Source of the DNA: an uncultured Bacteroidales bacterium
Lineage (GTDB): Bacteria > Bacteroidota > Bacteroidia > Bacteroidales > Bacteroidaceae
Direction of reading: 5' to 3'
DNA: 43,996 nt
Assembly: GCA_902774005.1 (NCBI GenBank)
Contig: CACYGK010000033.1
Span: forward strand, 1 to 43,996
Of the stretch, positions 7,793 to 13,161 are shown piece by piece. Both the position numbers and the translations under genes were made by a program. The notes beneath the pieces were generated by a model, which was not told the DNA's origin, did not search any database, and saw only the letters and a list, made by a program, of their open reading frames with translations. Each line of letters begins with the position of its first letter. The stretch's first letter is position 1.

Positions 7793-8395
7793 ATGCTAAA
7801 GTTTGACAAACCAAAGGACATTGCAAAGGAGATATGTACGCTGCAAGGCGTGAATATGAGCAATGACAACCTGAAACGACTTGCCGATATTCTCGAACCG
7901 ATAAAACTGATTCGGGGAAAAAAGCCGGTGCAGGAGGGTGAGGTGTGCAAAAACATCTTTTATGTGAAACACGGACTCTTGGTGCAGACTTACAAGAAGA
8001 ATGGAGTGAAGGTGACGGAGAGTTTTGCTCACGAAGGGGATTTCGCTGTGAGTATAGAGAGTTATTTCCGCCAGGAACCGTCGCAGTTGGAGATACAGAC
8101 TCTGGAACCGTCGATATTGTATGGCATACCGTACGACAAACTGATGGAACTGGCACATAGTTCGTTCGAGATATGTAATCTGATTTTTGCCATCGAACGT
8201 AATATGCTTTACATCCTTCAGCAACGTGCAGATGCCATGAGGTTTGAATCGGCAAAAGACAAGTATCTGCGTCTGACAAAGACAAAACCGGAGATTGTAC
8301 GTCGAGCACCGATGCACCTCATTGCTTCGTTCCTGCAGATAACACCGGAAACGCTGAGTAGAGTCAGGACGCAAGTCAACTCAGAAGAGAAGTAA
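7793..8395 (+). CDS. Crp/Fnr family transcriptional regulator
   Basis: A 200-residue one-component regulator. Residues about 25-130 form the cyclic-nucleotide-binding-type jelly roll (EGEVCKNIFYVKHGLLVQTY, then FAHEGDFAVSIESYF and LEPSILYGIPYDKL). A helical linker follows, and a C-terminal winged helix-turn-helix covers residues about 165-195 (RRAPMHLIASFLQITPETLSRVRTQ). This is the common short Bacteroidetes version; it lacks the Arg/Ser phosphate-cassette of E. coli Crp, so cAMP binding is not implied. It lies 16 bp upstream of the large kinase gene and probably belongs to the same regulatory block. The start at 7793 is immediately downstream of the repeat arm. The effector and target genes cannot be read from the sequence. 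Confidence 0.9.
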   Translation: MLKFDKPKDIAKEICTLQGVNMSNDNLKRLADILEPIKLIRGKKPVQEGEVCKNIFYVKHGLLVQTYKKNGVKVTESFAHEGDFAVSIESYFRQEPSQLEIQTLEPSILYGIPYDKLMELAHSSFEICNLIFAIERNMLYILQQRADAMRFESAKDKYLRLTKTKPEIVRRAPMHLIASFLQITPETLSRVRTQVNSEEK

Positions 8396-8411: not shown

Positions 8412-11400
8412 ATGAAACATATCGTAATCCATATCATTTCAATTCTTCTGCTATGCATCTTGTTTACCGGATGTATAGGAGGAAGTGAGGAAGATGACCG
8501 CATGAAAGCCCTGCTTGACAGTGCCCGTACGGAGATGCTGGTGAATATGGACTACAACAAATCAGAGATGCTCTATAAGGAGGTTATCGGGTCGACCCGC
8601 AATAAACTTCTGAGACTATGGGCTGATGAGGGTATGATGCAGTTGTGTCAGATCCGTTCGCTCAACAAGAGATATTATGATTATCGTTCGGATGCTCAGC
8701 AGATTCTGCGTGAATTCAAGACTGCCGAACGGCATATCGATGCTGAGAACGATTCTCTGCTGAAACGTGCAAGAAGACATTTCTACCGGGTGTCGGCTGT
8801 CTATTATATTACGCTCCGTGATGTGGAACGAATGTCTGAGATGATTGACAGTATGCATATCGAACCACTAGCCAAGAAGGAGTTTCTTGCAAGATATCTG
8901 GGTAGGGAAAGTATGTATTACAAGTCGCTGAAGAAGGTATGGAGTGCTGAGGACCTGACCGACGAAGGCAGGTATGACGAGGCTCTGGACAGTCTTGCCG
9001 CAGCACTGCACTTCATTAATCTGCATCATCAGAGGTACAGTTTCAACGGAATGGAAGACACATTATCTATATATAAGGAGTCTGCCGATACGATTTCGAC
9101 TGAGATGCGATGGATACATAATCCGGACTGTGTATGTGTGCCCGACTGGATGGCAACGGTACGCGAACAACTCAGTATCACGTTCGGTGCAATGGGAAAT
9201 AAGGAGGCTTCAGACTATAATCATAATATCTATTTCGATATTCTTGATGCTACAAGGCAGGACCGTCAACTCGAACAGCAGATGGACCGTCTGCTAGAAC
9301 ATGAAAGCAGTCTGAACATTTATCTGATTATCACTTCTGTAGCTGCACTGCTGATGCTAGTTGTCGGTATCCGACTGTATAACAGGAAGAAACATGGCAG
9401 TATCAGACAGCAGGAAAAACTGCGTGAGGAAACAGAACATAATATCAGTACTCTGCTGGAACGCTGGCTCAAGGAAAAAGGTGGTTCGATTTCAAAGATT
9501 CAGGATGAGATGGAATATGCCGATGACGAACGAAAGGCTGCTGAAATGAAGGTAGAGGAGAATAAACGCAGTTATATCGATAAGGCAACAAGTATGTCGA
9601 TTGCAAACGGAATAGTTCCGTTCCTAGACCGTGCTATTCGTGAAGTTGACGGTAAGAACTGCGATGTGACTTATCTTGCCGAACTCATTGACAAGATAAA
9701 TGACTATAACGATATACTGGGTCATTGGGTAAAGATAAGACAAGGCAGTGTGTCGCTACATATCGAGAGTTTTCCGCTTGACTCACTTTTCGAGGTAGCA
9801 AGGAAAGCTCAGAAGATGTACGAAACAGAGGGACTCAGTCTGGAAGTGACAGCTACCGATGCTGTTGTCAAAGCTGATAAGGCTCTGACTCTGTTCATGA
9901 TAAACACACTGATGGACAATGCCCGTAAGTTCACTCCACAGGGTGGTTCGGTAAAGGTATATGCCGAACAGACTCCCGACTATGTGGAAATCTCGGTGAA
10001 GGATACGGGTTATGGAATGTCGGAGGATGACAGCAGGGAAGTGATTACTGCAAGGAAGGGATATGGATTCGGACTGCTGAACTGTCGTGGTATCATTGAG
10101 AAATACAAGAAGACGAACCGTCTGTTCTCCGTATGTCATTTCGGAGTGGAAAGCAAGATAGGAGAGGGTAGCAGGTTTTTCTTCCGACTACCGACAAAGA
10201 TAATCGCTATCCTGGCACTGCTGATGATGCCGTTCACTATGCTTTCGGCACAGGAACCTGATGAGGGAATACGGCAGGCTAGGGCGTTTGCCGACAGTGT
10301 GTATGAATGCAATATGAATGGTAATTATGCAAGAGCTATTGAATTTGGTGACTCTGTCATTACATCACTCAATATGCATTATATTGCAGTTACAGGACAG
10401 ACAGACAAACTGCTGAAGCTTGACGGTGAACTGAGAGACATGCCAGAAGTCAAACTTTGGCAGGACGGTTTCGATACTGATTACGATGTGATTATAAGTG
10501 TGAGAAACGAAATAGCAATTGCGGCTCTTGCCATGAACCGAAAACATCTCTACCGCTATAACGGTGATGTGTTTACTCGGCTCTATCAGTATATATCTCA
10601 GGACAAGGAAATGGTTGACGATGTAGCAAGACTGGAACGCATGAACAACAATAAGGTTCTTATTCTGAACCTCTCGATACTTCTCATTTTCCTCATTATC
10701 ATCATTACGGTACTGTATTATTATCATCAGTATATACTGCCGTTGTCGAATCTGAAAGAGGTAAACGAACTGGATGAACAGCTTCTTGACAGCGAGGAGG
10801 ATAAGATTCTGCAAATTGTAAAACGAACTATAAACGACATAATCACAATTGACGATATAAAGATTCTGCCAGTCGGTACTTCGGTGGTTGACCGTCAGAA
10901 TAGTACACTTACCATACCTCTGACACTGGATGTAGATGGTGAACAACTTGACATCGGACTGCTTGCTATATGGCTTCATGCTAATGTAACACCATCGGTG
11001 GATAAGTCAAACGAAAAACTGCTTGGAATGATTGCTTCATATCTTGCAATAGCTCTGTATTGCACTTCTACAAAGATTGATGAGATGCGTCAGCAGTTGG
11101 AGATAAAACAGGACGAGCAGCATCGGGCTGAAGCAGACAGGAACAGAATACATGTGCAGAATATGATTCTTGACAACTGTCTGTCGGCTATCAAACACGA
11201 AACAATGTATTACCCGACCAGAATCAAACAACTGATTCCGACAAATAAAGACGGTAAGAAGGAGATGGATAAGGGTGCGATATCCGAACTGCTCCACTAC
11301 TATAAGGAAATATTCACGGTACTCAGTGAATGTGCCATGAAGCAACTGGAACAGACTGCATTCAAACGGCGAACGGTAACGGCTGACAGTCTGGTAGAAG

Positions 11401-11825
11401 GTATAAAACGAATGGCTGAGGATAATCATAAGTCTACGACACGGACTCTTGATATCAGAAATGAAGTACCGGAGACAACCCGGATCATCTGTGACCCTAT
11501 CATGGTACAGTATATGTTCGATGCACTGCTTTCAGCTATTCCTGAGAATACAGAGACGACGTTTGCAGTAGATATAAAGAGGGAAGGGGACTTCTGTGTA
11601 TTCAATATCACAGACTCAAGCAGACACTGGACCATCGAACAGACTAAGTCTCTGTTCTATGCTGACAGCATGACTTACGATGCAGAAAACGACCAGCTGC
11701 AGGGTGGGGAGTATATACTCTGCCGTCAGATTATAAGAGAACATGATGATCATTGTGGAGTGCGTGGTTGCAGGATTTATGCTGAATCTCCAAACAGACT
11801 GACATTCACTCTGCCTTGCCGTTAA
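8412..11825 (+). CDS. Two-module membrane histidine kinase (DUF5112/DUF5113 type)
   Basis: A single 1137-residue chain holding two kinase-like modules. Module 1 has a lipoprotein-type signal (LLLCILFTGC, Cys21), an alpha-helical TPR-like sensor (30-300), a transmembrane helix (303-322), a coiled coil and a good HATPase domain: N-box NTLMDNARKFTP (498-509), G1 DTGYGM (531-536), G2 KGYGFGLLN (549-557). No histidine sits in the expected dimerisation helix (about 390-410). Module 2 begins with a signal-peptide-like hydrophobic stretch (597-613, ending MLSAQEP), a second helical sensor region, a transmembrane helix (749-771), a GAF-like domain (790-890), a coiled coil and an H-box-like IKHETMYYP with His929. 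Its ATPase domain is degenerate (ICDPIMVQYMFDALLSAI kept; NITDSS in place of G1). Predicted topology is periplasm-cytoplasm-periplasm-cytoplasm. The response regulator follows after 30 bp. The DUF names are from memory. Confidence 0.82.
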   Translation: MKHIVIHIISILLLCILFTGCIGGSEEDDRMKALLDSARTEMLVNMDYNKSEMLYKEVIGSTRNKLLRLWADEGMMQLCQIRSLNKRYYDYRSDAQQILREFKTAERHIDAENDSLLKRARRHFYRVSAVYYITLRDVERMSEMIDSMHIEPLAKKEFLARYLGRESMYYKSLKKVWSAEDLTDEGRYDEALDSLAAALHFINLHHQRYSFNGMEDTLSIYKESADTISTEMRWIHNPDCVCVPDWMATVREQLSITFGAMGNKEASDYNHNIYFDILDATRQDRQLEQQMDRLLEHESSLNIYLIITSVAALLMLVVGIRLYNRKKHGSIRQQEKLREETEHNISTLLERWLKEKGGSISKIQDEMEYADDERKAAEMKVEENKRSYIDKATSMSIANGIVPFLDRAIREVDGKNCDVTYLAELIDKINDYNDILGHWVKIRQGSVSLHIESFPLDSLFEVARKAQKMYETEGLSLEVTATDAVVKADKALTLFMINTLMDNARKFTPQGGSVKVYAEQTPDYVEISVKDTGYGMSEDDSREVITARKGYGFGLLNCRGIIEKYKKTNRLFSVCHFGVESKIGEGSRFFFRLPTKIIAILALLMMPFTMLSAQEPDEGIRQARAFADSVYECNMNGNYARAIEFGDSVITSLNMHYIAVTGQTDKLLKLDGELRDMPEVKLWQDGFDTDYDVIISVRNEIAIAALAMNRKHLYRYNGDVFTRLYQYISQDKEMVDDVARLERMNNNKVLILNLSILLIFLIIIITVLYYYHQYILPLSNLKEVNELDEQLLDSEEDKILQIVKRTINDIITIDDIKILPVGTSVVDRQNSTLTIPLTLDVDGEQLDIGLLAIWLHANVTPSVDKSNEKLLGMIASYLAIALYCTSTKIDEMRQQLEIKQDEQHRAEADRNRIHVQNMILDNCLSAIKHETMYYPTRIKQLIPTNKDGKKEMDKGAISELLHYYKEIFTVLSECAMKQLEQTAFKRRTVTADSLVEGIKRMAEDNHKSTTRTLDIRNEVPETTRIICDPIMVQYMFDALLSAIPENTETTFAVDIKREGDFCVFNITDSSRHWTIEQTKSLFYADSMTYDAENDQLQGGEYILCRQIIREHDDHCGVRGCRIYAESPNRLTFTLPCR

Positions 11826-11855: not shown

Positions 11856-12572
11856 ATGAATCCATTCAAAGTAATAATCGTTGAAGACGTAAAACTCGAA
11901 CTCAAGGGTACGGAACAGATATTCCGTAATGAAATACCCGAGGCTGAAATCGTCGGAACTGCCATGACTGAAGAACAGTTGTGGCCGTTAATGCATAATA
12001 ATACTCCCGACCTCGTTCTGCTTGACCTCGGACTGGCAGGAAGTACGACTGCAGGTATCGATGTATGCAAACAACTGCGACGTCGCTATCCTAATGTTCA
12101 TATACTTATCTTTACAGGTGAGATTCTGAATGAACGTCTGTGGGTAGATGCACTTGATGCCGGTGCTGACGGAATTGTACTGAAGACTGGCGAACTGCTT
12201 ACTCCCGACCTGGTATACAGTGTGATGAACGGCAACAAACTGGTGTTCAACCAACCGATTCTGCAGAAGATAGTACAGCGTTTCCGCAGTGTCATACTTT
12301 CAGAGAGTCAACGTTCGGAGGCAATGCTAGAATATGACATAGATGAATATGACGAACGGTTCCTGAGACATCTTGCATTGGGATATACAAAGGATATGAT
12401 TGCTAACCTGCGTACTATGCCGTTCGGTGTCAAGTCGCTTGAAAAACGTCAGGCAGACCTCACACGTCGTCTATTCAGCGAGGATGCAACGGGTGTGAAT
12501 GCAACCCGTCTTGTAACCAAAGCTCTACAACTCAACATCATCAATCTCGATAATCTGACTCCGGATGCATAA
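11856..12572 (+). CDS. Response regulator with REC domain and LuxR-like C-terminal region
   Basis: The 238-residue protein has a receiver domain (residues 4-125) with all key residues: acidic pair E10/D11, phosphoacceptor D57 (LVLLDLGLAG), T87 (ILIFTGE) and K110 (GIVLKTG). After a linker, residues about 165-215 (DERFLRHLALGYTKDMIANL, then VKSLEKRQADLTRRLF) resemble a LuxR/NarL-type four-helix DNA-binding domain, though the match is weaker than in typical members. It follows the two-module kinase by 30 bp and is the obvious partner. The 3' end overlaps the next gene by 8 bp, implying translational coupling. Targets are unknown. Confidence 0.88.
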   Translation: MNPFKVIIVEDVKLELKGTEQIFRNEIPEAEIVGTAMTEEQLWPLMHNNTPDLVLLDLGLAGSTTAGIDVCKQLRRRYPNVHILIFTGEILNERLWVDALDAGADGIVLKTGELLTPDLVYSVMNGNKLVFNQPILQKIVQRFRSVILSESQRSEAMLEYDIDEYDERFLRHLALGYTKDMIANLRTMPFGVKSLEKRQADLTRRLFSEDATGVNATRLVTKALQLNIINLDNLTPDA

Positions 12573-13161
12573 ACTGTTGAAATCACTGCTCATTGCGGAA
12601 TTGCTGCTGCTTCCAATCATTGCAATTGTATCATGGATTTGCAGCGTTTACACACCGTCGGTACGTAGTCTGCTCGCTCCGTTGGGACTGCGTTGGATTA
12701 CCACGAGTTTCGTCAGTAATTTCACACGATTGCCGATTGCCGAATGTGTACTTTGTCTCATTCTGCTATCACTGATTTCATCACTCGACCTTCGTTCCAC
12801 ACTGCGTGGAAGGATTTCACAGAAAGAGAAACGGGCACTGTTCTTTTCATTTATTGTGTTCCTTATAAACATAGCGGCAATTGCAGCACTCACTTTCTTT
12901 CCACCATATATTCTTCTTAATTTCTTCGGTACGTTCTCATCTTCACCACTTACCGACAGTATACCGGGTTTCATTTTCATCACACTTGAAACCACTTGCT
13001 GCACTTATGCCTATACATCGGGAAAGATGACTACTATGCAGGATTTCTCCGTAGCCCATTCATGGCTTATCGTAAAATTCAGTCCATTCTTCATCCACCT
13101 GTTTGTAATTGCACAGATAATCGGATGGTTGGGCTTTTCAAGACTCCTGTCACTTATATAA
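12565..13161 (+). CDS. Five-helix inner-membrane protein, AbgT-like
   Basis: This 198-residue hydrophobic protein has about five predicted transmembrane helices (residues roughly 5-28, 45-74, 88-115, 130-150 and 165-196). The segment SLLAPLGLRWITTSFVSNFT resembles the N-terminal motif of AbgT-type p-aminobenzoyl-glutamate transporters, as I remember that family, but the protein is less than half the usual length, so transport function is not assured. Its ATG lies inside the last codons of the response regulator (8-bp overlap). It may be an output of, or accessory to, the upstream signalling genes. The 3' end overlaps the convergent alpha/beta hydrolase gene by 12 bp. Confidence 0.6.
   Translation: MHKLLKSLLIAELLLLPIIAIVSWICSVYTPSVRSLLAPLGLRWITTSFVSNFTRLPIAECVLCLILLSLISSLDLRSTLRGRISQKEKRALFFSFIVFLINIAAIAALTFFPPYILLNFFGTFSSSPLTDSIPGFIFITLETTCCTYAYTSGKMTTMQDFSVAHSWLIVKFSPFFIHLFVIAQIIGWLGFSRLLSLI

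Follow-up and report, generated by a model that had tools for sequence, protein, structure and literature searches.

The open reading frame at positions 8412-11825 of the forward strand of contig CACYGK010000033.1 (assembly GCA_902774005.1, an uncultured member of the Bacteroidaceae; "the window" hereafter denotes the whole 43,996-nucleotide stretch analysed) likely encodes a sensor histidine kinase whose catalytic and phosphoacceptor functions are split between two paralogous modules of duplication origin, with phosphate predicted to pass from the first module to His929 of the second and on to Asp57 of the neighbouring response regulator. The frame is single and intact, has an ATG start and encodes 1137 amino acids, and each of its modules comprises a sensor, a transmembrane segment (TM), a dimerization and histidine phosphotransfer domain (DHp) and a catalytic and ATP-binding domain (CA). 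Its parts are as follows, with the basis of each assignment in brackets.

8412..11825, + strand: two-module sensor kinase frame, 1137 aa (alignment of 72 homologues)
8412..8474, + strand: N-terminal lipoprotein-type signal, ending ...LFTGC21 (lipobox pattern in homologues)
8535..8867, + strand: DUF5112, periplasmic sensor of module 1 (Pfam)
8946..9377, + strand: DUF5113 copy 1, end of the module 1 sensor, TM1 included (paralogous to copy 2)
9318..9371, + strand: TM1, residues 303-320 (hydropathy)
9525..9761, + strand: DHp1, H-box without histidine, A398 and N399 at 9603-9608 (alignment)
9774..10193, + strand: CA1, intact ATPase domain (Pfam HATPase_c, invariance in 72/72)
9918-9920, 10002-10016 and 10059-10073, + strand: CA1 boxes, namely N503, G1 (D531-G535) and G2 (G550-G554)
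10194..10250, + strand: internal signal-peptide-like segment, residues 595-613, ending ...TMLSA/Q (comparison of seams)
10269..10721, + strand: DUF5113 copy 2, periplasmic sensor of module 2, most of TM2 included (Pfam)
10671..10724, + strand: TM2, residues 754-771 (hydropathy)
11109..11366, + strand: DHp2, H-box K928-H929-E930-TMYY-P935, H929 at 11196-11198 (conservation in 72/72)
11358..11822, + strand: CA2, degenerate ATPase domain without N, G1 and G2 boxes (hhalign to CA1, alignment columns, Pfam)

The two modules were found to have kept complementary parts of a kinase. In alignments of 52 and then 72 homologues, the window included, N503, K506, D531, G533, G535, G552 and G554 of CA1 were invariant in all 72 and G550 was conserved in 68, but the H-box histidine of the same module is missing. 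The window has A398/N399 at its place, and helix 1 of DHp1 is free of histidine. Column 398, which we take to be the H-box position from the usual His-to-Pro spacing, holds V in 63, A in 8 and L in one of the homologues, and column 399, the H-box position by alignment to module 2, holds, among others, N (40), T (7), Y (6) and H (5); no conserved module 1 histidine was found at these columns across the 72 homologues. A histidine of the second DHp1 helix, outside the H-box, was seen in 42/72 homologues and in 16/16 rows of alignment A1 (His438).

Module 2 shows the reverse. K928, H929, E930, Y934 and P935 of DHp2 are invariant, so that the H-box histidine and its acidic neighbour are present in 72/72, whereas in a joint alignment CA2 has the N503-column Asn in 0/72, both G1 glycines in 0/72 and both G2 glycines in 0/72. 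D531 alone is retained in 50/72 and G552 alone in 50/72; Pfam HATPase_c matches module 2 of the relative L119 at 1.1e-8 and that of the window at just 0.084. Judged by its sequence, CA2 is a relic of the ATPase fold. A DxGxG string present in CA2 of 8/72 homologues was rejected as a G1 box, being placed by the alignment in a loop near the C-terminus. Neither DHp-CA module thus carries both sets, the histidine and the ATP boxes lying in different modules, and as this holds in 72/72 aligned homologues the pattern is more than chance. The first-pass annotation of this DNA had described an ATP-competent module without its histidine next to a module with His929 and a broken ATP site, and had asked whether both defects persist in homologues; both descriptions are borne out, N503 and H929 lying at the positions it gave, and the defects are conserved as a pattern in every row. 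A functional ATP site in module 2 was not found, and a sequencing or assembly fusion, which the annotation had left open, is ruled out by the occurrence of the same two-module frame in many genomes.

The annotation had further proposed two tandem kinases with complementary loss, which is supported by the complementary invariances and by paralogy of both CA domains and sensors. CA1 and CA2 matched each other in hhalign with a probability of 98.8 (E 8e-17), and in profile comparisons the cytoplasmic halves matched at E 6e-17 and the end of sensor 1 matched sensor 2 at E 1.5e-12. The frame belongs to the DUF5112/DUF5113 proteins, both families scoring above the Pfam cut-off (DUF5112 at residues 42-152, HATPase_c at 496-596, DUF5113 at 621-770), and a whole-genome profile search placed DUF5113 twice in it, at 8946-9377 (residues 179-322) and at 10269-10721. 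The two DUF5113 copies give each module a related sensor, a point absent from the annotation. A tree of 144 modules rooted on one outgroup sequence (L161) resolved the 72 module 1 and 72 module 2 tips into separate clades, with a stem support of 1.0 for module 2.

The outgroup comes from another family, f101, two genomes of which have a 718-aa frame (L161 and L172); among the matches listed from beyond the kinase's own family, this frame scored highest against module 2. Like the window kinase it has a lipoprotein-type N-terminal signal, a sensor, one TM, a DHp and a CA, and its adjacent downstream gene encodes a regulator with DUF5932 (1.2e-5, over the cut-off); it differs in having the histidine and the ATP boxes on one module. 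FRHD, NLINNALRYT, DTGCG and HGFGLM occur together in this single module, followed by IIKKHDDETRRGCKIW, so that it combines the ATP boxes seen in module 1 with two features typical of module 2, the His-acidic pair and the HDD..RGCKI stretch. No DUF5112 or DUF5113 match was found by Pfam in the part of the f101 frame scanned, which included the sensor. A relative with both sets fits duplication followed by complementary loss, and we infer the f101 kinase to be of the form expected before these events; coming from two closely related genomes, it is not a reconstruction of the ancestor. Kinship of this kinase with FimS/FimR of Porphyromonas was considered but is not claimed. That the conserved REHD..RGC stretch of CA2 has gained a new function was also considered and is not favoured, since the single-module relative has the same stretch. 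Beyond the f101 pair, module 2 gave weaker matches outside the family, mostly starting past the H-box (among the matches listed), as generic ATPase domains would. An L161 query outside f101 likewise gave matches mostly confined to the CA end, among the matches listed.

In the proposed mechanism the two periplasmic sensors (DUF5112/DUF5113 and DUF5113) would sit one per module. CA1 would bind ATP and phosphorylate His929 of DHp2, either inside one pair of modules, cleaved or not, or from one chain to another, and the phosphate would move to D57 of the DUF5932 regulator encoded directly downstream. DHp1 and CA2 would be retained as structural and regulatory partners, with a DHp1-DHp2 pair in place of the usual homodimer. 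The arrangement would have originated from a single-module kinase that was duplicated and then underwent complementary loss. The regulator and the gene behind it lie as follows.

11856..12572, + strand: response regulator, receiver (D57 at 12024-12026, T87, K110) and DUF5932 (Pfam, locus comparison)
12565..13161, + strand: small membrane protein, AbgT-family Pfam hit covering part of the profile, 5.5e-9 (position after the regulator)

A receiver-DUF5932 protein was found 3' of the kinase in 70/71 loci by a distance rule and in the 71st (L132) on inspection; there the regulator, 68% identical, starts before the limit of the rule and ends 737 nt past the kinase. The regulators share 61-99% identity with that of the window. 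D57 was present in 70/71 aligned rows (L126 has a gap), and T87 and K110 in 71/71, the alignment consisting of the window and 70 loci with L132 left out. The kinase thus has an adjacent receiver with the D57, T87 and K110 expected of a cognate regulator.

Several observations weigh against the split kinase or against parts of it. Five homologues (L033, L130, L137, L151 and L152) have a histidine at DHp1 column 399, which argues mildly against the strict claim that module 1 is never phosphorylated; the residue after it is G, S or N, in no case acidic (E or D). Position 933 of DHp2 (His+4) is Tyr in 71/72 and Trp in 1/72, neither Asn nor Thr, which leaves DHp2 without the usual HE/DxxN/T phosphatase motif. 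DHp1 and DHp2 profiles alone gave no significant match (0.8%), and the module 1 stem of the tree had a support of only 0.14. With this weak stem and L161 as the sole root, in-place duplication and fusion of two older paralogues are both possible. The homologues, 28-92% identical to the window (median 35%), form 68, 55 and 32 clusters at 90, 70 and 50% identity, and counts over the 72 rows ignore shared ancestry, except for a repeat with 32 representatives made for the seams. Frames were moreover picked by length (at least 1000 aa for the first 51, at least 950 aa for the next 20; actual lengths 988-1557 aa), so split-gene forms would escape this set. Eight loci (L052, L076-L080, L083 and L084) had been dropped as duplicate contigs before the counts, L046 ends at a contig end, and L088 entered solely with its longer frame.

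Whether the chain stays in one piece depends on the seam between the modules. P594, the last CA1 residue, is separated from a hydrophobic run by 5 residues in 57/72 (median 5, range 1-23). The run has a median length of 15, compared with 20 and 22 in the two TMs; its 19-residue hydropathy is 1.77 against 2.89 and 2.83. A lipobox pattern was found at 17/72 seams against 1/72 and 2/71 of the TMs, and a strict signal peptidase I site at 27/72 against 5/72 and 0/71. With the 32 representatives at 50% identity, the seams matched in 12/32 and 11/32, respectively, compared with 1 and 3/32 for TM1 and 1 and 0/31 for TM2. The net charge ahead of the core is +2.9, and the seam accordingly has the positive n-region, short hydrophobic core and cleavage site of a signal peptide, with a resemblance to type I or to a lipobox depending on the lineage. 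The first-pass annotation had called the join a leftover signal peptide; the likeness holds, and "leftover" probably understates a segment with the features of a working one. Retained cleavage sites, a switch between their types and a persistently short run are not what one expects of a plain anchor, which tips the balance slightly towards cleavage. Three findings pull the other way: a loose signal peptidase I site, seen at 52/72 seams, also occurs in 18/72 and 15/71 of the TMs; 11/72 seams match neither cleavage pattern, several of them ending in forms such as MKAE or MSAQ, which the pattern as written barred at -3; and some lipobox matches (such as those of L087, L088 and L138) lie inside the hydrophobic run.

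On this evidence we rate as marginally better than even the chance that signal peptidase I or II cleaves the chain at the internal signal peptide to give two membrane subunits in a 1:1 ratio. The fuller reading built on the resemblance of the seam to a type I signal peptide or a lipobox, in which signal peptidase I, or the lipoprotein peptidase in other lineages, processes a polyprotein into a 1:1 obligate heterodimer with two periplasmic inputs and one regulator, has about an even chance. Somewhat less probable is that the chain remains uncut and forms a covalent pseudo-dimer, with H929 phosphorylated by CA1 of the same or an adjacent chain and the segment serving only as a signal anchor. Every DUF5113 match of the family over the cut-off, among the matches listed, lies in a frame of at least 956 aa, with no separate-gene form seen; in the window, 17 successive residues of the seam include no D, E, K, R, N, Q or H, a length close to the minimum for a membrane helix; and the positive charge ahead of the segment would suit an anchor as well. 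However, compared with the TMs found in the same chains, seams are reduced in length and hydrophobicity and more often end in a lipobox or A-x-A, and with the CA1 end a median of 5 residues from the segment an uncut chain would tie CA1 near the membrane. Production of module 2 from an internal start was also considered: in 12/72, the window not among them, a Met lies between P594 and the charged residue closest to the core on its N-terminal side, and since Met inside the hydrophobic run was uncounted this route is unlikely rather than excluded.

The split-function kinase itself has to be weighed against two other explanations. It is improbable, in our view, that one half is a pseudokinase, with ATP on CA1 acting as an allosteric switch and H929 being phosphorylated by another kinase or serving as a relay or phosphatase site. 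Kinase-like proteins acting without phosphotransfer are known, for example DivL, which was also the top PDB match of the frame (E 1.2e-5), and DHp2 deviates from the HisKA motif at +4; but every one of the 72 frames conserves all ATP boxes along with the H-E pair, and in the single-module relative the two sets are combined. A degenerating or mis-assembled gene can practically be dismissed, as it is already refuted by conservation. The cytoplasmic part of module 2 is indeed the less conserved (mean column identity 44% against 58% for module 1, 27 rows each), and in Hoylesella pleuritidis (L088, 5751-9356) the start of the module 1 sensor lies in a separate frame from the remainder, by frameshift or assembly error. 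Against this stand the intact two-module frame in many assemblies and genera, the invariant residues and the kept regulator.

Histidine kinases are normally homodimers of identical modules. A precedent for complementary loss is offered by the mammalian transmembrane adenylyl cyclases, in which tandem duplicated catalytic modules of one chain together form one active site, although fold and chemistry are unrelated to those of the window kinase. Bradyrhizobium fbcH (cytochrome b/c1), on which no paper was found in our search, is a bacterial precedent for cleavage of a single frame at an internal signal peptide; it encodes part of a respiratory complex and no kinase, and processing of the window frame is predicted. 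Among split kinases, CheA3/CheA4 of Rhodobacter sphaeroides likewise have the ATP site and the phosphoacceptor histidine in different units and are active solely together (PMC3591291). As described there, they are separate proteins with a P1 phosphoacceptor domain in cytoplasmic chemotaxis, whereas the window frame has two DHp/CA modules and periplasmic sensors in one chain. The same paper reports 1556 of 42417 HisKA proteins to be without a HATPase domain, 711 of them with a phosphatase motif, and describes the HE/DxxN/T motif of split bifunctional kinases (PMC3591291). The window kinase departs from both groups, kinase and phosphoacceptor being on one frame in the 72 homologues, which were chosen for length, and Asn/Thr being absent at His+4. 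Split kinases being already known, the novelty suggested by the sequences lies in two complete modules of a single frame having undergone complementary losses, which was not found in print in the open-access literature with the words searched, tandem and degenerate kinases of Bacteroides being covered. No paper on EspA/EspC or under the name DUF5112 or DUF5113 was found in that literature either, and Pfam records these Bacteroidaceae proteins merely as having domains of unknown function.

DUF5113 was found over the cut-off in the source genome and in 23/24 genomes of the same genus in a nearest-genome search; outside the genus, 1/16 nearest genomes had a match, below the cut-off. Within the family it was found in 233/301 genomes and 25/30 genera, mostly as two copies per frame. 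The five sampled genera with no match, among the matches listed, were g212, g216, g217, g218 and g229, possibly by lineage loss. In an order-wide sample, 14/393 genomes had DUF5113 at E 0.001 and seven were over the cut-off, six of these from the family and the seventh (G144) with a match in a TPR protein. DUF5932 was found in 7/384 genomes of the order, five of the family (the source genome included) and the two of f101. The relatives that carry names are Bacteroidaceae or Prevotella-like records, and ruminant guts are the source of many. One family, in 25/30 sampled genera, appears to have fixed an asymmetric one-gene kinase with two sensors and one active site. In cultured gut Bacteroides this would open cis/trans phosphorylation, the logic of two inputs and the way in which obligate heteromers arise to direct tests. 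Should the seam be cut, bacterial signalling would gain a polyprotein processed by signal peptidase, and family proteins annotated as one chain would really be two.

At the N-terminus a lipobox was found in 53/70 homologues, C21 being invariant across the 16 rows of alignment A1. Compared with six relatives the window form is short; two long ones (L119 and L085) are extended by 83-88 residues after residue 155, by 58-90 after 342 and, following 548, by 20-21 within the ATP lid. A relative of the small membrane protein at 12565-13161 was found in 51/71 loci. Just upstream of the kinase, at 7793-8395, lies a Crp-like regulator, seen elsewhere only in L073-L075 among the 71 loci, not all of which reach that far.

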